From: Bacteroidia bacterium
GTDB lineage: Bacteria; Bacteroidota; Bacteroidia; M30B66
Direction of reading: 5' to 3'
Assembly: GCA_018401705.1 (NCBI GenBank)
Contig: JAGYKL010000002.1
Coordinates: forward strand, 129,526-193,525
Length of the DNA: 64,000 nucleotides
Shown in pieces: positions 3,371 to 51,847 of this stretch. The first letter of the stretch is position 1. Each line of letters opens with the position of its first letter. Under the pieces are notes generated by a model. That model was not told the origin of the DNA. It searched no databases and saw nothing but the letters and a program-made list of their open reading frames with translations. A program made the position numbers and the translations under genes.

Positions 3371-4507
3371 ATGAAGTTCTATTTGTCTCTTGCCTTTGCC
3401 ATCTGCATCTTAACAATTCATGCCCAGGATTCTAAAACAATCAAAGGGATTAATACTCACAGCCTAGAACTATCAAGTGCTTTACATAAAAAGGGAGAGA
3501 ATTTATTCTGTTCTCCTCTCAGCCTCAGTACTGCCCTGGCAATGGTTTATGCGGGATCTGATGGTCAAACTAAAGCAGAATTCGAAAAGATAATGCATTA
3601 TCCGGGTGAAGAAACATTCGGCCAAATGAGGTTTATTGACCAACGTATCGAGTCAGTCAATAAAAACGGCAAGGTTACACTTGACCTGGCTAATGCTCTT
3701 TGGAATAGGATTCCACTAAAGAACGAGTATGAAGCAAGACTTAAAAATGAATTTCAGGCAGAATTTTACCCTTTAACAACCGAAAAACCCATCAATGAAT
3801 GGGCTTCCAAAAAGACACGCGGTAAAATTCCTAAAGTGCTAAATGAAGGTGATATAACCCCCGACATGGCAATGGTTCTAACAAATGCCATCTATTTTAA
3901 AGGTTCTTGGTTATATAAGTTTGACTCCTCCTTGACGAAAGAGCAAAATTTCTATCCTTCTTCAGGTAAAAAAGAAAAATGTGAATTGATGTTTTCTGAA
4001 ACTTCTGTATTCTATTATGAAAACACAAACTACCAACTTATAGAATTACCTTATCAAGGAAACGAGATTGTTATGGAAGTGTATCTTCCCTCTAAAAACT
4101 CGAACATCTCAAAAATGTTGAAAGAGATTTCTTCTTCTAAAGACGTTCCGAAAACTTACGAAAAAACAAAGGTTTTTCTACCCAAATTCAAAATGGAGAC
4201 GTCTTACGACTTGATACCTGTTATGAAAAAAATGGGCTTAGTTTCTCCATTTACAGATGCTAACTTCAGCAAAATGTCTGATGCTCCTCTGGTAATCAGC
4301 AAACTTCTCCAAAAAGCATTTGTAGAAGTAAAAGAAAAAGGCACTGAAGCTGCTGCAGTTACAGTTGTTGGAATTACGCTTACTAGCGCACTTCCCACTC
4401 CTGTAAAGGAACCAAAAGTATTTCGGGCCGACAGGCCATTTTATTTTGCAATTAGAGATAAGCAAACCAGCCTTATACTTTTTACCGGAATCGTGGAGTC
4501 GCTCTAA
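3371..4507 (+). CDS. Secreted serpin-family protease inhibitor
   Basis: The 378-residue protein has a signal peptide (about 1-18, ending at HAQ) followed by a full serpin fold. The hinge KGTEAAAVT at about 323-331 has the small-residue pattern of inhibitory serpins. Counting from the hinge by the alpha-1-antitrypsin register puts P1-P1' near Thr338-Ser339, so a target with chymotrypsin- or elastase-like preference is more likely than trypsin; this register is an inference. The C-terminal signature (RPFYFAIRDK) is present. Serpins are sporadic in bacteria. A secreted inhibitor could protect the cell from its own or others' proteases. It is monocistronic by spacing: 61 bases after lptB and 34 before the next gene. 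Confidence 0.92.
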   Translation: MKFYLSLAFAICILTIHAQDSKTIKGINTHSLELSSALHKKGENLFCSPLSLSTALAMVYAGSDGQTKAEFEKIMHYPGEETFGQMRFIDQRIESVNKNGKVTLDLANALWNRIPLKNEYEARLKNEFQAEFYPLTTEKPINEWASKKTRGKIPKVLNEGDITPDMAMVLTNAIYFKGSWLYKFDSSLTKEQNFYPSSGKKEKCELMFSETSVFYYENTNYQLIELPYQGNEIVMEVYLPSKNSNISKMLKEISSSKDVPKTYEKTKVFLPKFKMETSYDLIPVMKKMGLVSPFTDANFSKMSDAPLVISKLLQKAFVEVKEKGTEAAAVTVVGITLTSALPTPVKEPKVFRADRPFYFAIRDKQTSLILFTGIVESL

Positions 4508-4541: not shown

Positions 4542-5396
4542 ATGAAAAATTTCCTACTTCTAATTTTCCTTTCTTCTTGGTTTCATTTAATTGATCTAAA
4601 GTCTCAAGTTATCATAAGTGAGAACTTCGAAACTTGGGAAGATCTTGGAGATGGATATACTCAACCTGAGGGATGGTTTTCGAGTAATGCTTTCGATGCT
4701 TTATTTGGCGATAACCAGGGAATATTACAAAGTAATGATAGCTATGAAGGCCAATATGCCGCCAGAATGCGAGCTTATTTTACAATTGAGCCCGATCCGG
4801 TTGGCTCATTTATGAATCTGACTGCCCCAATAAATGAAAATCCTGAAATGATTTCAGGCTGGTACAAACATTTGCTAGTCAATGATACCGTTATACTTAT
4901 CGCTCCCTGCTTTGCCTATGATGCAGAAAATGATACTTCAACAAGCGTTGGTACAGTAAATATCGAGTTCTCCGGTCTGGTAGAAGACTACACCTATTTT
5001 TCGAGCCCTTTTACTTTTCAGCAGCCTGCAACAGCTGATACAATAAGATTGTTAATTGCATTTAGTGACATAGTTCTCTCTGGAGAATCCACTTTCACAA
5101 TCGATAATATTAAAATAGAATCTAGTAGTTCGTTATCTGAATTATCAGGATTTAGCATACCATGCTATCCAAATCCTGCCGAAGGCAGAGTTTCTTACTA
5201 TTTGCCTCAAAACCTAAAATCAGCAAGCCTCTGCCTTACAAATGCTCTTGGTCAAGTATTTTTCTCATTAAATCAAGATTTGTCCCAAGGCACGCATCAA
5301 CTTAGTTTAGAAGGCCTCCCGGCTGGAATTTACCATCTAAACATAAAGGACGAGGATGGATTTACAGGAAATTCCAGGATCATTCATATTGATTAA
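4542..5396 (+). CDS. T9SS type A sorting domain-containing secreted protein
   Basis: The protein has 284 residues. It begins with a signal peptide of about 22 residues. The middle (about 25-195) is a beta-rich domain with FETWEDLGDGY and a TFTIDNIKI ending, resembling the jelly-roll modules common in Bacteroidota surface proteins. The C-terminal 75 residues carry the T9SS type A sorting signal (CYPNPAEGRVSYYLP, then ALGQVFF, then LPAGIYHLNIKD), so export across the outer membrane by PorU-type machinery is expected. No catalytic motif is recognised; ligand binding or adhesion is a guess. Confidence 0.8.
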   Translation: MKNFLLLIFLSSWFHLIDLKSQVIISENFETWEDLGDGYTQPEGWFSSNAFDALFGDNQGILQSNDSYEGQYAARMRAYFTIEPDPVGSFMNLTAPINENPEMISGWYKHLLVNDTVILIAPCFAYDAENDTSTSVGTVNIEFSGLVEDYTYFSSPFTFQQPATADTIRLLIAFSDIVLSGESTFTIDNIKIESSSSLSELSGFSIPCYPNPAEGRVSYYLPQNLKSASLCLTNALGQVFFSLNQDLSQGTHQLSLEGLPAGIYHLNIKDEDGFTGNSRIIHID

Positions 5397-5479: not shown

Positions 5480-5878
5480 ATGCATAAAATCACCCAATTC
5501 CTCATAGTAGGAGTCTTTGCTTTATTTATCGTTCCTGGTTGCTCTAAAGAGCCAGGACCAGGAGGAAATGCCTCTATTCAAGGAAAAATATTAATTCAAT
5601 CTTTCAATAGTAATTGTTCCGCATTGATTAGTGAATATTACGGTGTTGACCAAGATGTATACCTCATTTATGGCGATGACCCTTCGTATAGTGAACGTGT
5701 TAGAACAGGTCCTGGAGGGGTTTATTGGTTCCCGTATCTCAGAAAAGGAGAATACACCGTTTATGCTATTTCAGAAACATGTTCACCTGTCGGTGGAGAT
5801 ACAATTAGTGCCCAAACGGTAACTATAAATGACAAAGACGAAACCGTGCAGCTTGAAGATATTATAGTTATTAGATGA
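5480..5878 (+). CDS. Small lipoprotein of unknown function
   Basis: The protein has 132 residues and a lipoprotein signal with a lipobox (VPGC, lipidated Cys21). The mature part is a small beta domain with two further cysteines and a repeated acidic, glycine-rich character. It resembles the carboxypeptidase-regulatory/CnaB-like folds often found in Bacteroidota lipoproteins (GEYTVYAIS near the middle), but I do not recognise a named family. Its stop overlaps the next start (ATGA), so it is translationally coupled to the following gene and probably heads the VTC/DUF4956/DUF2490 operon. Confidence 0.7.
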   Translation: MHKITQFLIVGVFALFIVPGCSKEPGPGGNASIQGKILIQSFNSNCSALISEYYGVDQDVYLIYGDDPSYSERVRTGPGGVYWFPYLRKGEYTVYAISETCSPVGGDTISAQTVTINDKDETVQLEDIIVIR

Positions 5879-6450
5879 AGTTCTCACTGCTTTTTTTAGC
5901 TCTTATTATATGCCAAACCTCAACTTTGGCCCAATCAAAGAAAGAGGTTAGAAATTATGGCATTTCTTCTTTTGTTGAAACAAGAATTCTTTATGAAAAC
6001 GGAGTCGAATCGAAACGTTTCATCAAAGAGAAAAAAGCATGGAACAAAAACGGGCAACTAATTCTTGACGAACAATATTCTAAAAATGGTGAAATCCAAT
6101 CAAGAGAAACTTTTGTTTGGAACAAAGATGCGTTGATTGAAGAAACTTCTGAGAATTATAGCAAAGAGAAATCTGCTAAAAAGGAGTTTGTAAAAAAATC
6201 ATACAGCCTGCAAAAGAAAAAAGTTATCGAGGAAAAAGTATTCAACGAGAAAAATGAGCTCATTGAGCGAGTTACTTATTTTTATAACCGGTTTGGAGAT
6301 AAAATTGAAGAGCAAGAGTTCAGCCCCTCTAATGAATTGATTAAAAAGGTTGTGTATTTATATAATAAGAAAGGGCTTAGAATCGAGAAAGCTGAGCTCG
6401 ACTCTCAAGGTATTGTAACAGAAAAGACCCTTTATGAGTATTCCTTTTAA
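5875..6450 (+). CDS. Secreted protein with YNKKG-type short repeats, function unknown
   Basis: The protein has 191 residues with a signal peptide (about 1-19, ending at LAQ). The mature part contains several degenerate units of about 20 residues built around a Tyr-x-Asn-(K/R)-x-Gly core (for example YNRFGDK and YNKKGLR), alternating charged and aromatic residues. This resembles the MORN/YD-like repeats of YwqK-type proteins, but the match is loose. It overlaps the preceding lipoprotein gene by four bases and the following VTC gene by one base (TAATG), which argues for one coupled operon. Confidence 0.65.
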   Translation: MKFSLLFLALIICQTSTLAQSKKEVRNYGISSFVETRILYENGVESKRFIKEKKAWNKNGQLILDEQYSKNGEIQSRETFVWNKDALIEETSENYSKEKSAKKEFVKKSYSLQKKKVIEEKVFNEKNELIERVTYFYNRFGDKIEEQEFSPSNELIKKVVYLYNKKGLRIEKAELDSQGIVTEKTLYEYSF

Positions 6451-7205
6451 TGGCAGCTTCACTCTTAAATATCATTAATAGCTTTTACCCAATCTCATTA
6501 GAAGGTATGGATAGAGTGCGTTTACTCAATCGCACAGATAAGAAATACCTAATGAATGCTGAAATGCTAAATACATTCCTGAGGCCACTAGCAAATTATT
6601 ATTTTGTGCTTGAACACATTGAAAAGCGAATACTGCATTATGAAACACAGTACTTCGATACTAAAGAACTTGATTTATACGCCATGCATTTACATGGACA
6701 AGGAAGAAGGTATAAAGTGAGAAGGAGATTTTACAGTGATAGCAAGATTCGATTCTTTGAACTTAAAACCAGAACAAATCAGGGAAAAACAGAAAAACAA
6801 AGAATCCTAACTCCTGATAATAACTCACAATTACGAGAAGAAGAAATTGAACTACTTCAAAACGAACTTCCGTTTGCGCCTGAATTATTAAAACCAACCT
6901 TGCTCACAGGTTACGATAGAATTACTCTTGTTAACAAAACCCATAACGAAAGAGTTACAATAGATTTGTCTTTAAACTTTGAGCAAGATGGTGAAAAAAC
7001 AGAAATGCAAAACTTAGTCATCGTAGAAGTAAAACAGGCAGAAAAAGCCCTAACTCCAGCATTGGAAGCCTTGCGCGATCTTCGTCAAAAACCAGGTGGG
7101 ATAAGTAAATATTGCTTAGGATTGATTTCAACTTTGCCAAAATTACCTTTTAATAGATTTAAACCACTATTGCTTAAAATAGACAAGCTAATTACCACCA
7201 CCTAG
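6450..7205 (+). CDS. VTC-domain (polyphosphate polymerase-like) protein
   Basis: The protein has 251 residues, essentially one VTC domain. This triphosphate-tunnel fold makes polyphosphate in yeast Vtc4. Features fitting the tunnel are the basic NRTDKKYLM segment near residue 30, the cluster YKVRRRFY followed by FELKTR, and the acidic-basic EVKQ near residue 192. There is no signal peptide, so the domain should be cytosolic. Bacterial VTC proteins commonly sit beside DUF4956 membrane proteins, as here: the next gene starts one base after this stop. Polyphosphate synthesis is inferred from the family and not proven for bacterial versions. Confidence 0.85.
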   Translation: MAASLLNIINSFYPISLEGMDRVRLLNRTDKKYLMNAEMLNTFLRPLANYYFVLEHIEKRILHYETQYFDTKELDLYAMHLHGQGRRYKVRRRFYSDSKIRFFELKTRTNQGKTEKQRILTPDNNSQLREEEIELLQNELPFAPELLKPTLLTGYDRITLVNKTHNERVTIDLSLNFEQDGEKTEMQNLVIVEVKQAEKALTPALEALRDLRQKPGGISKYCLGLISTLPKLPFNRFKPLLLKIDKLITTT

Positions 7206-7206
7206 A

Positions 7207-7893
7207 ATGATTAAAACAATCAAATTCAGCATTTTAAGTTTGCTTTTCCTTGCTTTTGGAGCATTGCCATTAAGCGCTGCTAATGAATTCCCTCAAGACT
7301 TTTTCTCTTTATCTGCCGACCATCTGTCTTCATATTTCTTTGTCAGACTTCTGATAAATATATTCTCAATGATTGTGCTGGTGAGGTTTATATATTATCC
7401 TGTTTACAAAAAGAACGACTACTTCTTCACGTTCTTCATGTTTAATGTTACCATCTTCATAATCACACATTTACTAAATAGTGAAACCGGCTTCTCCATG
7501 GGAGCTGCTTTCGGACTTTTTGCTATTTTCTCGATGCTACGATACCGAACTGAAGATATAACAGCAAGAGATATGACCTATCTTTTCGCTGTAATTACTC
7601 TTGGATTGATAAGCTCGGTAAATCAAGGAAACCTGCTTGAATTACTTCTCATAAACGGAATCGTACTTGGATTGGCATTCTTACTTGACGGTGGCATCCT
7701 TATCAAAACAGAGCGCATGCAAGTAGTTCAATACGAAAAAATCGAAATGATTAGACCCGAAAACCGTCAAGAACTACTTAGCGATTTGCGAGAAAGAACC
7801 GGATTAAACATCAGAAAAATCAGCATCGATAAAATTGATTTCCTTAGAGATACGGCACTAATCAAAGTTTATTACATCGAGCAAAAACACTAA
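7207..7893 (+). CDS. DUF4956 integral membrane protein
   Basis: The protein has 228 residues with an N-terminal signal or first membrane segment (7-25) and about four more hydrophobic segments up to residue 165. A soluble C-terminal domain of about 60 residues follows (ERTGLNIRKISIDKIDFLRDTALIKV). The motif FSMLRYRTEDI near residue 110 is characteristic of DUF4956. The family is repeatedly found next to VTC-domain genes and is thought to work with them, possibly as a membrane partner or channel. It overlaps the downstream DUF2490 gene by one base (TAATG). Confidence 0.85.
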   Translation: MIKTIKFSILSLLFLAFGALPLSAANEFPQDFFSLSADHLSSYFFVRLLINIFSMIVLVRFIYYPVYKKNDYFFTFFMFNVTIFIITHLLNSETGFSMGAAFGLFAIFSMLRYRTEDITARDMTYLFAVITLGLISSVNQGNLLELLLINGIVLGLAFLLDGGILIKTERMQVVQYEKIEMIRPENRQELLSDLRERTGLNIRKISIDKIDFLRDTALIKVYYIEQKH

Positions 7894-8570
7894 TGAGAAT
7901 TCTTCTCCTTGCTTTTTTATGCTTTTGCACCTTGTCAATTTCCGCTCAAACGCGGGATGATTTCAGATTCTGGAGCAGTGTTTCATGGTCATCTGAGCTG
8001 AACGATAAACTTTCAGTTGTTTTAGATAACGAAGCTCGCTGGGAAAATAATGCTTCTGTCCTAGGTCGGTATTTCATTGAACCTGGCATTCGTTATAAAT
8101 TCAGCGACCTATTCAGGCTTCAACTTCAATACCGTTTTATAAGAGATTTTGATGAAAGATGGTGGGGTAATCGAAACAGAATAACCCTTGATGCAATCTT
8201 CAAAATCAAGAAGGCTAGATGGAAATACTTAATGCGAGCAAGGTTTCAGTATGAGAAAAACGGCTATGGCTTTATCGACGAATCCCTCGATGTTCCTGAA
8301 CTCTACAATCGGGAAATGATCAAAGTGAATTATCGCCTCAATAGGTTCTGGGAACCATTCATCAGTTTTGAAGCAAGATTTCTCTTTCAGGATGATGCAC
8401 TTCCAGGATTTATTGGTTTTGATCGTCATAGACTTCGTCTGGGAACAGACTATAACATCTCAAATAGGCTAAGCGTTGGTGCATTCTTAAGCTGGCAACA
8501 AGAATGGAATAGAAATACAAACGACCGTCTCCTCATTCTCGGAACCTCAATTTCCTGGAATGCCTTGTAA
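7893..8570 (+). CDS. DUF2490 outer-membrane beta-barrel protein
   Basis: The protein has 225 residues with a signal peptide (about 1-18, ending at SAQ). The mature chain is almost entirely alternating amphipathic strands rich in Trp, Arg and Tyr (FRFWSSVSWSSEL, IRYKFSDLFRLQLQYRF, RLGTDYNISNRL), as in DUF2490 proteins, which are predicted outer-membrane beta-barrels. It closes the operon begun at 5480. An outer-membrane pore paired with an inner-membrane DUF4956 and a cytosolic VTC protein suggests an envelope-spanning arrangement, which is inference. Confidence 0.8.
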   Translation: MRILLLAFLCFCTLSISAQTRDDFRFWSSVSWSSELNDKLSVVLDNEARWENNASVLGRYFIEPGIRYKFSDLFRLQLQYRFIRDFDERWWGNRNRITLDAIFKIKKARWKYLMRARFQYEKNGYGFIDESLDVPELYNREMIKVNYRLNRFWEPFISFEARFLFQDDALPGFIGFDRHRLRLGTDYNISNRLSVGAFLSWQQEWNRNTNDRLLILGTSISWNAL

Positions 8571-9251
8571 TTAAATTACAATATTCACCATTCTACCTGG
8601 CACTACGATTACCTTTTTTGGACTTCCTCCATTCAACCATTTCTCGGCTTCTTCATGAGAAAGGGCTAAAGATTCTACTTCCTCTTTTGGCATGTCAGCC
8701 GAAACAGTGATATTAAACCTGGTTTTTCCATTAAATGCCACAGGATAACTTATACTGCTTTCCTTAATAAAGTCATCATTCCAATCTGGAAATTTGGCAT
8801 TTACCACAAATCCATCCTCTCCTAAAGCACTCCACAATTCCTCCGCTATATGCGGAGCATATGGCGAAAGTATAATCAGCAAGTTTCTCAGAATCTCTCG
8901 GTTGCGACATTTTTGTTCGCTTAGCTCATTTACACAAATCATAAAGGTACTCACCGAAGTATTGAAAGAGAAACGTTCAATATCTTCTGCAACCTTCTTA
9001 ATTGTTTTATGTAAAGTCCTTAATTCACTTTCCGTTGGCTTTGCTTCCTGAACTTTCAAATTACCCTGATCATCAAGAAATAAATTCCAAAGTTTCTTTA
9101 GGAACCTATAAACGCCTTCAATTCCATTAGTGTTCCATGGTTTCGATTGCTCCAAGGGTCCCAAAAACATCTCATACATTCTGAGTGTATCGGCTCCAAA
9201 GTGAGCAATGATATCATCAGGGTTCACAACGTTGAACTTCGATTTCGACAT
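8571..9251 (-). CDS. leuS: Leucyl-tRNA synthetase, C-terminal fragment (KMSKS and anticodon-binding domain)
   Basis: The 226-residue fragment begins exactly at the KMSKS catalytic loop ([14 protein letters not shown]) and runs through the anticodon-binding domain to the usual LeuRS C-terminus (PGRMVNIVI). In the same frame upstream of its Met the sequence still encodes LeuRS-like residues ([18 protein letters not shown], back to about 9317) before an in-frame stop. The Met here is therefore internal to the real protein and not a true start. The enzyme charges tRNA-Leu and is essential. The rest of it lies at 9493-12132. Confidence 0.9.
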
Positions 9252-9492
9252 CTTCTCTACCTCAACTCCACAAACATAATTCCTCAGCTTGAGGATGAAT
9301 TCAACCGATTATTTGGAATTTGACTCAAACCATTCTTAAGACATTTTACATAAATTAAATTCTCCTCCAGTATAGTTGTTTGTTGAACTTTTTTTCAGAT
9401 ATCTTTTCTTTAAGAGTTGTTTTTATTAATCACATCATCAATTTCTTAACAATATTTTCATTTGATGATCTAAAGCAACAGTGTAAAATCAA
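9252..9492 (-). other. leuS: Degraded link between the two leuS fragments
   Basis: These 241 bases separate the two LeuRS frames and have stops in all three minus frames. The part nearest 9252 still reads as LeuRS in the downstream frame (VCGVEVEK). The expected HVDV...W segment just after the upstream fragment cannot be read cleanly in any one frame. Several indels, or a replaced stretch, are needed to join the fragments. Because leuS is an essential single-copy gene, sequence error is the simplest reading. Confidence 0.6.
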
Positions 9493-12132
9493 CTAACGCA
9501 AGTCTGTAAATCCAGACAGATTCGGTCTACTAGCTAACATATCCTTTGAGATGTAGCTATTGCTTCCCGCTACGCGGTAAACAAAATTCGACCTCCCCAA
9601 AATCATCCCCTGATTAATCAACTTCCTAAAAGGCTCAGGTTTCGATACCAATCCTTTATCAAACAAAAACTTCTGCCAGAATCTGGCATAAAGCAAGTGC
9701 CCTACGGCATGCTCAGTACCACCAATGTATAAATCTACATCCTGCCAATAGCCTTCAGCTTCTTTGCCAACAAACGACTCTTCATTTCTGGCATCCATAT
9801 ATCTAAGGAAATACCATGAAGAACCGGCATATCCGGGCATCGTATCTGTTTCTCTTAAAGCTCCATCAACATTAACCCAATCACTTGCTTTAGCTAAGGG
9901 ACTTTCGGGTTTTCCAGTTGGTCTGAAATCTTCCATCACAGGAAGCTCAAGCGGTAACTCACTCTCTTCGAGAGGATATGCAACACCATCTTTGTAAACA
10001 ATCGGGAAAGGCTCACCCCAATAACGCTGTCTGCTAAACCCGGCATCTCTTAATCTGAAGTTCACTTTTCCTTTGCCAAACCCCGTAGCTTCAATAGCCT
10101 CGATAGCTTTTCCTATTGCTTCGTAACCAGTTAAACCGTTTAGGAAGTCAGAGTTAATCATCTTCGCCTCCTTAGTTGGGTCAGCAGCTTCGGATATGTC
10201 AACACCCTCATTAATTTCAGGAATCGGCAATCCAAAATGTTTTGCAAAATCCCAATCTCGCTGATCTCCGCAAGGTACTGCCATCACGGCACCAGTGCCG
10301 TAACCGGCAAGCACATAATCACCAACCCAAACCGGAATTTTCTCCCCCGAAAAGGGGTGAATAGCATAAGCTCCTGTAAATACTCCACTGATGCGCTTAA
10401 CCTCACTCATTCTCTCCCTTTCACTACGGTTTTTCGCAACCTGAACATACGCTTCAACTTCTGATTTCTGCTCTGGTGTGGTAATTCTCGCAACAAGCTC
10501 ATGTTCAGGCGCGAGAGTAAGGAAACTAACTCCAAATATGGTGTCAGGGCGGGTGGTGAAGACTTCAATATATTCGTTTGGCTGAGTTGCCCCCACCCCG
10601 GCCCTCCCTTCAGGGAGAAGGAGGCTAATTGAATACTCCTCTTCTGAGTCCTTTACTATACCCAGATTGTCTTTTGAAATAATACTTGTTGGTCTTGAGT
10701 TACAAGATTCAACAATTCTTTCAATTACTCCTTTCAGATTACTTTCAACTTCAGAATTCTGGAATCTTATCACTTTGAATCCCAACTTATTTAGCTCTTC
10801 GGTTCTTCCCTCATCGTATTCTGCAGTTTGGTCATGAATGCTGCCATCAACTTCAACTACAAGCATCTTTGATAAGCAAACAAAATCAACAATGAATTCG
10901 GAAATGATATGCTGCCTCCTAAATTTGAAATCTGTTTTAGACGATCGCAATTCCTCCCAAAGTAATTTCTCAGCTGGAGTCATGTTCGACCGCATCATTT
11001 TGGCTCTTGGAATTAAAACCTTAAATAAATTAGGGCTTGTAAGATGATATTCAGCATTCGAATCCTCAATGAATCCGAATGTATCCCCCCTCTCCTGAGG
11101 AGAAAATCCAGCCACAGAGCCTTCCCCCCTCTCCTGAGGAGAAAATCCAGCCACAAAGCCTTCCCCCCTCTCCTGAGGAGAGGGGCCGGGGGTGAGGTCA
11201 CTGTTGCCAACTCCGGTTGAGGAACCTTCCCCCCTCTCCTGAGGAGAGGGGCTGGGGGTGAGGTCAAACCTCAAACTCGCCCCTTCCGACTTACCAATCC
11301 AATTCCTTTGCATCTCCTTCATCGAATCGGTCCAATCCAATGTATCCAAATCTCCCAAGAGTCTTTCGGCATATGCCGTTATTCTTAAAAACCACTGACG
11401 CATTTGGCGTTTCTCGACAGGATGTCCTCCTCGCTCACTTAATCCATCCTTTACTTCATCATTAGCCAGCACAGTTCCTAGAGCTTCGCACCAGTTTACC
11501 GTTGCATAATCCTGATAGGCTAGGCGGTATTTCATCAGAATGTCTCGCTGTTCTTTTTCTGACATCCCCTGCCATTGCTCTGCAGTAAAAGGCGAATGCT
11601 CAGAGCAAGCTCCTTTAACACTAGCGCTACCTTCTGCTCTAAACTTATTCTCAAGGCTGGAGATATCTTCTGCTTTATTACTTTCTAAATTGAACCAGCT
11701 CCCAAAAAGCTTCAGAAAAACCCACTGAGTCCATTTATGATAAGAAGGATCAGATGTTATGACTTCTCTGCTCCAATCATAGCAAAAACCAATGTTATTC
11801 ATTTGCTCTTTATAGCGGGCAATATTCTCACGGGTAGTATCAGCAGGATGTCTGCCTGTTTGAATGGCATACTGTTCCGCCGGTAATCCAAAAGCATCAA
11901 AGCCCATTGGGTGCAAAACATTAAACCCTTTTAGTCTCTTGTATCTAGAAACAATATCTGAAGCAATGTAGCCAAGTGGATGCCCAACATGTAACCCAGC
12001 GCCCGAAGGGTAAGGAAACATGTCAAGAACGTAATATTTAGGTTTATCACTTTTGTGAGAGACTTTATAAACCTCTTGGTCTGTCCATTTTTTCTGCCAC
12101 TTGGCTGCTATTTCCGTAAAATTCGGCTCCAT
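9493..12132 (-). CDS. leuS: Leucyl-tRNA synthetase, N-terminal part with in-frame DUF559 insertion
   Basis: The 879-residue open frame carries the HIGH-type motif LHVGH (47-51), the catalytic core, and the CP1 editing domain with the T-rich motif TTRPDT (about 526-531). Between residues about 291 and 518, immediately before that T-rich motif, is a 228-residue insertion that other LeuRS proteins lack. It contains several SPQERGEG units, then a DUF559 endonuclease-like domain (about 384-473), then [11 protein letters not shown]. The frame ends at 9493 short of the KMSKS loop, which is in the separate fragment 8571-9251. Whether the insertion disturbs editing cannot be told from sequence. The gene stands alone, divergent from ftsX. 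Confidence 0.9.
10579..11262 (-). mobile_element. Palindromic-repeat / DUF559 nuclease element inserted in frame in leuS
   Basis: The roughly 684-base insertion (a multiple of three) has palindrome copies at its 5' end in coding orientation. Four copies of CCCCCTCTCCTGAGGAGA begin at 11085, 11124, 11163 and 11229, spaced 39, 39 and 66 bases, all multiples of three. The other end has the different hairpin CTCCCttcaGGGAG (10604-10617). Between them (about 10714-10983) is a DUF559 domain with PD-(D/E)xK-like residues: Asp416, then Glu427-Val-Asp429 in LeuRS numbering. The SPQERGEG peptides are the translation of the palindromes. I interpret it as a selfish repeat-plus-nuclease cassette that survives by remaining translatable. 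Confidence 0.75.
11085..11262. repeat. Four palindromic GC-rich repeats (CCCCTCTCCTGAGGAGAGGGG type)
   Basis: The copies start at 11085, 11124, 11163 and 11229. The last two have the full 9-base arms (CCCCTCTCC/GGAGAGGGG) and a GGGGGTGAGGTC tail. The first two are truncated in the right arm and share the linker AAAATCCAGCCAC. They are far richer in G+C than the surrounding gene. The truncated copies look like later tandem amplification within the element. Confidence 0.8.
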
Positions 12133-49842: not shown

Positions 49843-50562
49843 ATGAATAGGATAATTGTATTGATCTGCGCTGTGCTAGTTTGTTTGGTTTGTTCAAATT
49901 CAACAAAGGCACAGACGAATATGAGGTTAGGTTTTCATGCCGGAACAACTGTTTCGTGGCCTGCCGATCTATCTGGTTTAGACAATGGTTTTTTTACTGT
50001 GTCCAGAGCAGGGATTGAAGGGGGGATTTTAAATACACTATCAATAAATGATCGATTTATTTCTTCAATCGGAGTAAATACAAGTTTGCAATCGTTTGCT
50101 CTGAGGCAAACCGGCATCGATGTTTACAATATAGATGTTCGTTTCAAAGCACTTCAATTAGAAATCCCTTTAAGTGTTGGATTTACTGGATATTTGGGAT
50201 CATTAAGACACAGGGAAGTAATTGGGATTGGATTGCAAACCAATTTATCTTTAAGCAATAAGACGGTGTTCAATGGAGACAGTGCTTCTTCAATTGGCGC
50301 AACTGCAAGCAGTACTATTAAGAGCTCAATTTATCCTGTTCTAATAGCAGGATTTGAAATCGGATCAAGATTTGACAATGACGGAGGCCTATTTTTCGGC
50401 ATTAATTTCAAGTATGGAATGCAAGAGGTTTATTCTGCAAATTTGAACACAACTGTATTCTCCCCGCAGAGAGTTACATACAATGGAACATACTTGGGTT
50501 TAGGATTAACATTTTACCTACCTAGATATTCTTACTGGTTTAAAAGAGAGTTTATTTACTAA
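49843..50562 (+). CDS. Outer-membrane beta-barrel protein (porin-family-like)
   Basis: The protein has about 239 residues. The frame is open from 49810, but MNRIIVLICAVLVCLVCSNSTKAQ at 49843 forms a proper signal peptide. The mature chain is made of alternating aromatic/polar strands (RLGFHAGTTVSW, ALQLEIPLSVGFTGYLGS, GGLFFGINFKYGMQEVY, NGTYLGLGLTFYLPRY) typical of the Bacteroidota outer-membrane beta-barrel (OMP_b-brl/PorT-like) family. It converges with envC, whose stop is one base away. Confidence 0.75.
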   Translation: MNRIIVLICAVLVCLVCSNSTKAQTNMRLGFHAGTTVSWPADLSGLDNGFFTVSRAGIEGGILNTLSINDRFISSIGVNTSLQSFALRQTGIDVYNIDVRFKALQLEIPLSVGFTGYLGSLRHREVIGIGLQTNLSLSNKTVFNGDSASSIGATASSTIKSSIYPVLIAGFEIGSRFDNDGGLFFGINFKYGMQEVYSANLNTTVFSPQRVTYNGTYLGLGLTFYLPRYSYWFKREFIY

Positions 50563-50563
50563 C

Positions 50564-51847
50564 CTACCTGGCAATCCAGTCGGCTGGATCAAGCTTAACT
50601 TTTCCTTTCCAGATTTCTAGATGAGAAAGAGACTTACCTGTTTCTGCATCTTGATCAGCTATTCCGATTGCTTGACCAGTTCCTACTTTATCTCCTTTAT
50701 TAACAGAAACAGATGCTAAATTTCCATAAACGCTCAGGTATTCGCCATGTTTAATAATCACGGCTCTATTTGAGCCGGGGATAGAAATAACGCCAGTCAC
50801 AATCCCGTCATAAATGGATTTTACAGCTGCTCCATCAGTAGTGGTTATATCTACACCATTATTGTTAGTGCTGATACCTTTAAGCACAGGGTGCGGATGA
50901 ACGCCAAAAGATTCGGTGATAACCCCTTTTGAAACGGGCCAAGGCAATTTGCCTTTATTGGCTTCAAATTTACCTGATAAAGCCCTCGTTTCTGGGGTTA
51001 CCTTTAACTCAAGGTTCTCTTCTTTAGGAACAGGTTTTCCTTCTGCAATAGCCTTTTTTCTGGCTGCATCAGCTTCAGCCTTAGCTTTAGCTAAGGCCCT
51101 TTCTCGCTCTCGCTCAATTTCGCGTTCAATAATCTTTTGAATTTCCTTGTCTAATTTTTTAGCATCAGATTTCTTCTTAGAAAGATCCTTTTTTAGCTTC
51201 TTCTCTTTTTTGCTAAGCTTATTGACGGTTTGTTGTTGTTCTTCCTTCTCTTTAGAGAGTTCTTGTTTTTGCTTTTCTTCAGCGCCTAACAAATCCTTTT
51301 TTGAGCTTAAATCGGCTTGAAGTAGTTTTTGTTTGTTGTCTAATTCATCTGCCGCAGCCTTAAGCAAATCTGCTTGTTGTCTTCGGTAAGAATTATACTT
51401 TCTCAAGTAATACAATCTTTTATACGCTTGTTGAAAATCTTCGGAAGAATAAAGTAACATCATTACTGATTCTCGATTCCTATTTAAATATGCTTGCCGT
51501 ATAAGCTTCCCGTAAGATTTCTTTAAGGCTTCAACGTCTGACTGCAAAGACTTTATTCTTGAGTTAGTATTAGAAATATCTTTGTTTAGAAAAGTAACTT
51601 GACCTTGAATTGCACGAATCAGCTTTTTACGGTCATCTAATTTTTTATTTAAAACCTTTAACTGGCCCAAGGTTGCGTTTTTGTCTTTTCGAGTCTCTTG
51701 GATTAGTTTATTGGTTTGTTCAATTTCCTTTTGAAGTTCTCTTTTCTTTTTTTCAAGCGAAGATTTACTAGTTTGACCAAAGGCATTAGCCGATGCTATG
51801 AACGAGATAATAAGAAATAATAATAATTTATTTAAGAATGAGCTCAT
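50564..51847 (-). CDS. envC: EnvC-type murein hydrolase activator (coiled coil plus degenerate LytM domain)
   Basis: The 427-residue secreted protein has a signal peptide (1-25, ending at AFGQ). Long Lys/Glu/Gln-rich coiled coils follow (about 28-285), then a C-terminal M23/LytM-like domain (about 300-427). Zinc ligands appear missing: the usual H-G-x-D reads NGVD (Asn330, Asp333), and of the HxH only the last His remains (L407-S-His409). This is the pattern of non-catalytic activators such as EnvC, which recruit amidases under FtsEX control. FtsX is encoded at 12286. It is the last gene of the envelope operon. Confidence 0.88.
   Translation of the reverse strand: MSSFLNKLLLFLIISFIASANAFGQTSKSSLEKKKRELQKEIEQTNKLIQETRKDKNATLGQLKVLNKKLDDRKKLIRAIQGQVTFLNKDISNTNSRIKSLQSDVEALKKSYGKLIRQAYLNRNRESVMMLLYSSEDFQQAYKRLYYLRKYNSYRRQQADLLKAAADELDNKQKLLQADLSSKKDLLGAEEKQKQELSKEKEEQQQTVNKLSKKEKKLKKDLSKKKSDAKKLDKEIQKIIEREIERERERALAKAKAEADAARKKAIAEGKPVPKEENLELKVTPETRALSGKFEANKGKLPWPVSKGVITESFGVHPHPVLKGISTNNNGVDITTTDGAAVKSIYDGIVTGVISIPGSNRAVIIKHGEYLSVYGNLASVSVNKGDKVGTGQAIGIADQDAETGKSLSHLEIWKGKVKLDPADWIAR

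Follow-up and report, generated by a model that had tools for sequence, protein, structure and literature searches.

A conserved lipoprotein, repeat-protein, VTC, DUF4956, and DUF2490 gene module of Bacteroidia, with a possible role in polyphosphate delivery to secreted CotH proteins

Here we analyzed a 64,000-nucleotide stretch of a Bacteroidia genome, referred to as the window. Its ORF listing confirms five ORFs between 5480 and 8570, all on the plus strand and tightly packed or overlapping (Table 1). Read from the sequence, the junctions are, in order, an ATGA with a 4-base overlap, TAATG, a one-base gap, and TAATG. Three of the encoded proteins match Pfam families above cut-off, namely VTC (PF09359, 9.4e-24), DUF4956 (PF16316, 2.8e-52), and DUF2490 (PF10677, 3.5e-20). 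NCBIfam has no named family for any of the five. A first-pass annotation of this DNA had given the same genes, coordinates, junctions, and three domain assignments, all of which stand. It had also called a lipoprotein, whose lipobox Cys21 is invariant in 48 homologs, and a secreted YNKKG-repeat protein, which indeed begins like a signal peptide and carries an imperfect beta repeat of the form YNxxGxK...EE.

Table 1 Genes of the operon and the gene upstream of it, with predicted properties of their products.
Feature	Coordinates	Strand	Details
T9SS-tail protein, upstream of operon	4542..5396	+	Por_Secre_tail
Lipoprotein, small, acidic	5480..5878	+	132 aa; lipobox C21; predicted prealbumin/carboxypeptidase-regulatory-like beta domain
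Repeat protein, secreted, YD/Rhs-like beta-repeat	5875..6450	+	191 aa; mature start near almost invariant Gln20
VTC-domain protein, cytosolic, predicted polyphosphate polymerase (triphosphate tunnel fold)	6450..7205	+	251 aa; PF09359
DUF4956 inner-membrane protein, predicted	7207..7893	+	228 aa; PF16316
DUF2490 predicted outer-membrane beta barrel, basic	7893..8570	+	225 aa; PF10677

The T9SS-tail protein is possibly co-transcribed with the operon. Its N-terminal 205 residues have no homolog in the neighborhoods of relatives, and it was rejected as a conserved member. A serpin gene also lies close to the operon (3371-4507); the draft genome of a same-genus relative yielded no copy of it, and it is patchy in the class, occurring in 43 of 395 genomes. 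On the other side, leuS is convergent with the operon (8571-12132, minus strand) and appears split into frames 12132-9493 and 9251-8571. The region has repeated similar stretches (20 protein letters) and an apparent DUF559-type insertion. The C-terminal part of leuS is a single 642-aa frame in the same-genus relative (L036:75-2003), and the split here could be genuine or an assembly error.

The VTC domain spans the full length of its protein, covering PF09359 positions 1-232 of 235 at 84.7 bits against a cut-off of 23. Residues R28, R87, K89, R91, E104, K106, R118, R157, D172, and S219-K220-Y221 are invariant in 46 VTC homologs. A profile search with the protein recovered the yeast VTC4 and VTC2 structures, the VTC4 match being weak (6e-4), and the TK, RLRxY, ERK, YxR, and D stretches align with VTC4. 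These aligned tunnel-type residues are presumably the catalytic positions of VTC4. No SPX domain was matched by Pfam in the VTC protein or in the other scanned window proteins. The median pI is 9.6 for VTC, 9.0 for the repeat protein, and 9.5 for DUF2490, and such basic proteins would suit a polyanion.

Members of the triphosphate tunnel superfamily have several different activities, and the VTC-domain protein might instead perform triphosphatase or nucleotide chemistry, with the module phosphorylating surface proteins or glycans without polyphosphate. We regard this as unlikely. The Pfam VTC domain is clear and full length, and Lys, Arg, and Glu residues are conserved in a pattern consistent with the VTC type, even though the profile similarity to yeast VTC4 is weak and the envelope parts described below also occur without VTC. 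A further point in favor of another activity is that, in Streptococcus intermedius, deletion of the VTC gene is not among the deletions reported to change aggregation or Pel (PMC12345266).

The model of DUF4956 (AlphaFold2 pLDDT 86.6) has a signal-like segment followed by five helices of membrane-spanning length. At the C-terminus is an alpha/beta domain, ACT/ferredoxin-like and predicted to be cytosolic. R114-T115 is invariant in 57 homologs, and in this model the Arg-Thr loop would lie on the cytosolic side. The model has no significant structural match in the PDB, the yeast VTC membrane part included, so a structural relationship between DUF4956 and that part is unsupported.

For the lipoprotein, there is a weak CarboxypepD_reg/prealbumin-like Pfam match (9e-4) below the cut-off, and an alignment of 48 members (A3) shows invariant C21, GxGG, V60, YGD, and LRxGxY motifs. 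Since the residues following the lipobox are mostly Lys, Ser, and Asn rather than acidic, we infer that it is an outer-membrane, periplasm-facing lipoprotein. Tandem duplicates were seen in two loci (L046, L128) and long forms near 250 aa in three (L075, L112, L113); with these tandem and long variants, some genomes have two profile matches within one frame.

The repeat protein, aligned here with 38 members (A4), matches no Pfam family above cut-off. It is basic and is modeled as an all-beta meander (AlphaFold2 pLDDT 87.8), with local Foldseek matches to Rhs proteins at low TM-score. The DUF2490 alignment (A5) has four invariant arginines, R49, R115, R140, and R180. These are also kept in an unlinked paralog with no VTC link, which rules them out as a mark of the VTC-linked copies.

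We next considered the conservation of this arrangement. VTC homologs were found in 176 of the 395 Bacteroidia genomes searched, and 80 of those neighborhoods plus the window gave 81 loci, which were mapped with profiles built from the window proteins. Counting genes within 4 kb of VTC on the same strand, 80 of the 81 loci have DUF4956, 63 have DUF2490, 56 the lipoprotein, 41 the repeat protein (directly upstream of VTC), and 29 a CotH kinase-like gene. All five families of the window operon occur together in 36 of the 81 loci, nearly always in the order lipoprotein-repeat-VTC-DUF4956-DUF2490, with median gaps of 4, 1, -20, and -1 bases at the successive junctions. A second set comprised 80 loci of named genomes anchored on DUF4956, alignment A1 being too diverse for a scan of the collection. 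It agrees with the first, with VTC in 75 loci, DUF2490 in 61, the repeat protein in 43, the lipoprotein in 39, and CotH in 35. The two sets partly overlap and are similarity-ranked, and so are not an even sample. Genera in the second set include Runella, Emticicia, Flectobacillus, Lacihabitans, Dyadobacter, and Larkinella; these Cytophagales mostly have CotH-(repeat)-VTC-DUF4956-DUF2490, with the lipoprotein not adjoining.

The order and abutting junctions thus recur in dozens of genera. The window's genome has only two DUF2490 genes, which puts random adjacency at about 0.1%, and the two observations together rule out chance adjacency. The association of the genes is firmly established, and the data support a conserved, co-inherited envelope module built of these five families, with the repeat protein as an optional member. 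The VTC-DUF4956 pairing that the first-pass annotation had described as known is borne out by the 80 loci, and its association of the five families is not accidental, as gene order, locus counts, and genome co-occurrence all show.

Whole-genome counts extend this beyond the neighborhood. The lipoprotein profile matches 165 of 395 genomes, with 145 having both lipoprotein and VTC, 31 VTC only, 20 lipoprotein only, and 199 neither (p=2e-53). At the genus level the corresponding numbers are 66, 19, 12, and 100 (p=1e-22); these tests are not fully tree-aware. The patchy serpin served as a negative control and has no positive association, as 12 of 43 serpin genomes have VTC where about 19 would be expected (hand count). 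This rules out that any patchy gene would co-occur with VTC.

In split genomes (L210-L213, L215, L216, L219-L222), the lipoprotein directly adjoins DUF2490 away from VTC-DUF4956. Because these pairs stay together, the data suggest a module in two halves, one of the inner and one of the outer membrane. The same observation bears on whether VTC-DUF4956 could simply keep polyphosphate or phosphate in balance inside the cell, the envelope genes being unrelated to it apart from shared transcription. The first-pass annotation had held that the association would be accidental if VTC-DUF4956 regularly stood without the other three genes and their order varied. We found that 14 of the 81 VTC loci do lack all three extra genes within 4 kb. 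However, the order is strongly conserved, several of these genomes have a lipoprotein-DUF2490 pair elsewhere, and the lipoprotein and VTC co-occur strongly even when unlinked, making plain homeostasis very improbable.

Conversely, a single family (f28) includes seven genomes in which the lipoprotein is present and no VTC is detectable. Four of them were examined (L204, L205, L206, L208); there the genes for the lipoprotein, the repeat protein, DUF4956, and DUF2490 are adjacent without VTC, and in three of the four a CotH gene lies upstream. A Pfam profile search of 11 lipoprotein-positive, VTC-negative genomes found no VTC, and a divergent VTC hidden in them was rejected on this basis. PPK1 was found in 10 of these 11, the exception being an 80%-complete genome. 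Because the envelope parts and DUF4956 remain adjacent in the VTC-less genomes of this family, VTC is not obligatory for the module.

The five-gene set as first described is a true association of families but an incomplete one, as it missed a CotH-type kinase. Many loci encode a CotH kinase-like protein upstream, and it frequently carries lamin-tail domains along with a T9SS tail. CotH occurs in 170 of 176 VTC genomes (six lack it) compared to 60 of the 219 others, and is VTC's most constant genomic partner after DUF4956. Two aspartates are near-invariant in the CotH domains. In a same-genus relative (G009, locus L036), the locus reads repeat protein, CotH with a T9SS tail, VTC, DUF4956, DUF2490, and convergent leuS, which matches the window apart from CotH. 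The window operon itself contains no CotH, and the three CotH genes of its genome are all outside the operon. One of the three is interrupted by an in-frame stop (L224, contig C10, near 50176-51105). VTC and DUF4956 are adjacent here, as they are in the CotH-VTC-DUF4956 cassette.

We tentatively propose that the module is the Bacteroidota version of this cassette, a system spanning the envelope in which polyphosphate would be produced and passed outward to serve surface CotH; we consider this plausible, if short of probable. The VTC protein would polymerize polyphosphate from ATP in the cytosol and hand it to DUF4956 in the inner membrane. The basic repeat protein and the outer membrane-anchored lipoprotein may then act in the periplasm, with the arginine-rich DUF2490 barrel as the putative outer-membrane passage. 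At the cell surface, the exported polymer would serve T9SS-secreted CotH kinase-like proteins, encoded within the operon in relatives and elsewhere in the window's genome. The polyphosphate product, its outward movement, the individual steps across the envelope, and the tie to CotH activity are inferred.

Several lines of evidence point to this reading. These are the conserved order and abutting junctions, the lipoprotein-VTC co-occurrence with its serpin control, and the persistence of lipoprotein-DUF2490 pairs in split genomes. VTC implies CotH, and a CotH with a T9SS tail lies inside the operon in many loci. The tunnel-type residues of VTC are invariant, the VTC, repeat, and DUF2490 proteins are basic, DUF2490 carries its arginines, and 10 of the 11 VTC-less lipoprotein genomes above have PPK1, another polyphosphate source. 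As a reasoned proposal, polyphosphate synthesis and outward delivery tied to secreted CotH is the most economical reading.

Other observations count against polyphosphate export. They include the four loci with lipoprotein, repeat protein, DUF4956, and DUF2490 but no VTC, the six VTC genomes without CotH, and the S. intermedius VTC deletion being outside the reported effects (PMC12345266). In addition, DUF4956 has no structural match, the DUF2490 arginines are shared with an unlinked protein, and PPK1 is already in the genome. The VTC-less versions of the module are among the strongest counterpoints.

For secreted bacterial kinases, the source of the phosphate donor outside the cell is a standing question. 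The near-obligate genomic tie between VTC and a CotH that here mostly carries a secretion tail, together with the co-inherited envelope proteins, makes that question directly testable, and Runella, Emticicia, Flectobacillus, and Dyadobacter are culturable Bacteroidota suited to doing so. One further step would be surface phosphorylation independent of ATP, with T9SS-secreted CotH using exported, VTC-made polyphosphate as its donor instead; we think this quite unlikely. If the proposed system is real, DUF4956 and DUF2490 would gain functions, as would a lipoprotein family and a repeat family that both lack names.

In streptococci, clostridia, and bifidobacteria, Gram-positive Pel clusters are accompanied by CotH, polyphosphate polymerase, and DUF4956 as accessory genes (PMC7112168), and S. 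intermedius changes in Pel level and in aggregation when its DUF4956-like or CotH gene is deleted (PMC12345266). Both findings favor a regulatory or assembly module, in which VTC-DUF4956 would sense or tune cellular phosphate or polyphosphate and, with CotH, control the production or surface display of exopolysaccharide or T9SS cargo, with no export of polyphosphate. The predicted cytosolic ACT-like domain of DUF4956, a fold often used for sensing, fits this as well. However, no recurrent Pel-like neighbor or exopolysaccharide-cluster gene was apparent in the 10-kb neighborhoods of either locus set (Pel families were not profile-searched), and regulation leaves unexplained the tie of VTC to a lipoprotein, a periplasmic repeat protein, and an outer-membrane barrel. 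We judge a regulatory role somewhat unlikely.

Compared to known systems, the core is familiar and the extension appears to be new. The three core families, CotH, VTC, and DUF4956, are contiguous in S. intermedius (SIR_1592-1594) and shared with the Bacteroidia clusters. An ACT-like domain has been described for SIR_1592, and the DUF4956 model here has a similar one; the placement of SIR_1592 in DUF4956 is our reading of the gene order and domain description, as the name is not used in PMC12345266. That 2025 paper did not find the trio outside the Pel locus (PMC12345266), whereas CotH-VTC-DUF4956 clusters are common in Bacteroidia. Relative to the Gram-positive Pel cassette, the lipoprotein, repeat protein, and DUF2490 barrel are added here, and CotH is T9SS-secreted and, in the window's genome, unlinked. 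The trio itself is known. For the lipoprotein/repeat/DUF2490 extension we found no published account, nor for the five-gene set, in a literature search that left out subscription papers and preprints and in which only two papers mention DUF2490. Like the module here, the yeast VTC complex (VTC1/2/3/4) combines a VTC catalytic domain carrying tunnel-type Lys/Arg/Glu residues with a membrane partner, but the VTC protein here is without SPX and its partner DUF4956 is a different family without a structural match. PPK1, also in the window's genome, is a predicted polyphosphate source as well, but it is an unrelated enzyme on another contig, outside the operon. Finally, Bacteroides thetaiotaomicron BT3498-BT3499 is a DUF4956-DUF2490 pair that appears in an iron-response table (PMC10434189) and offers the same adjacent pair as here in a tractable relative.
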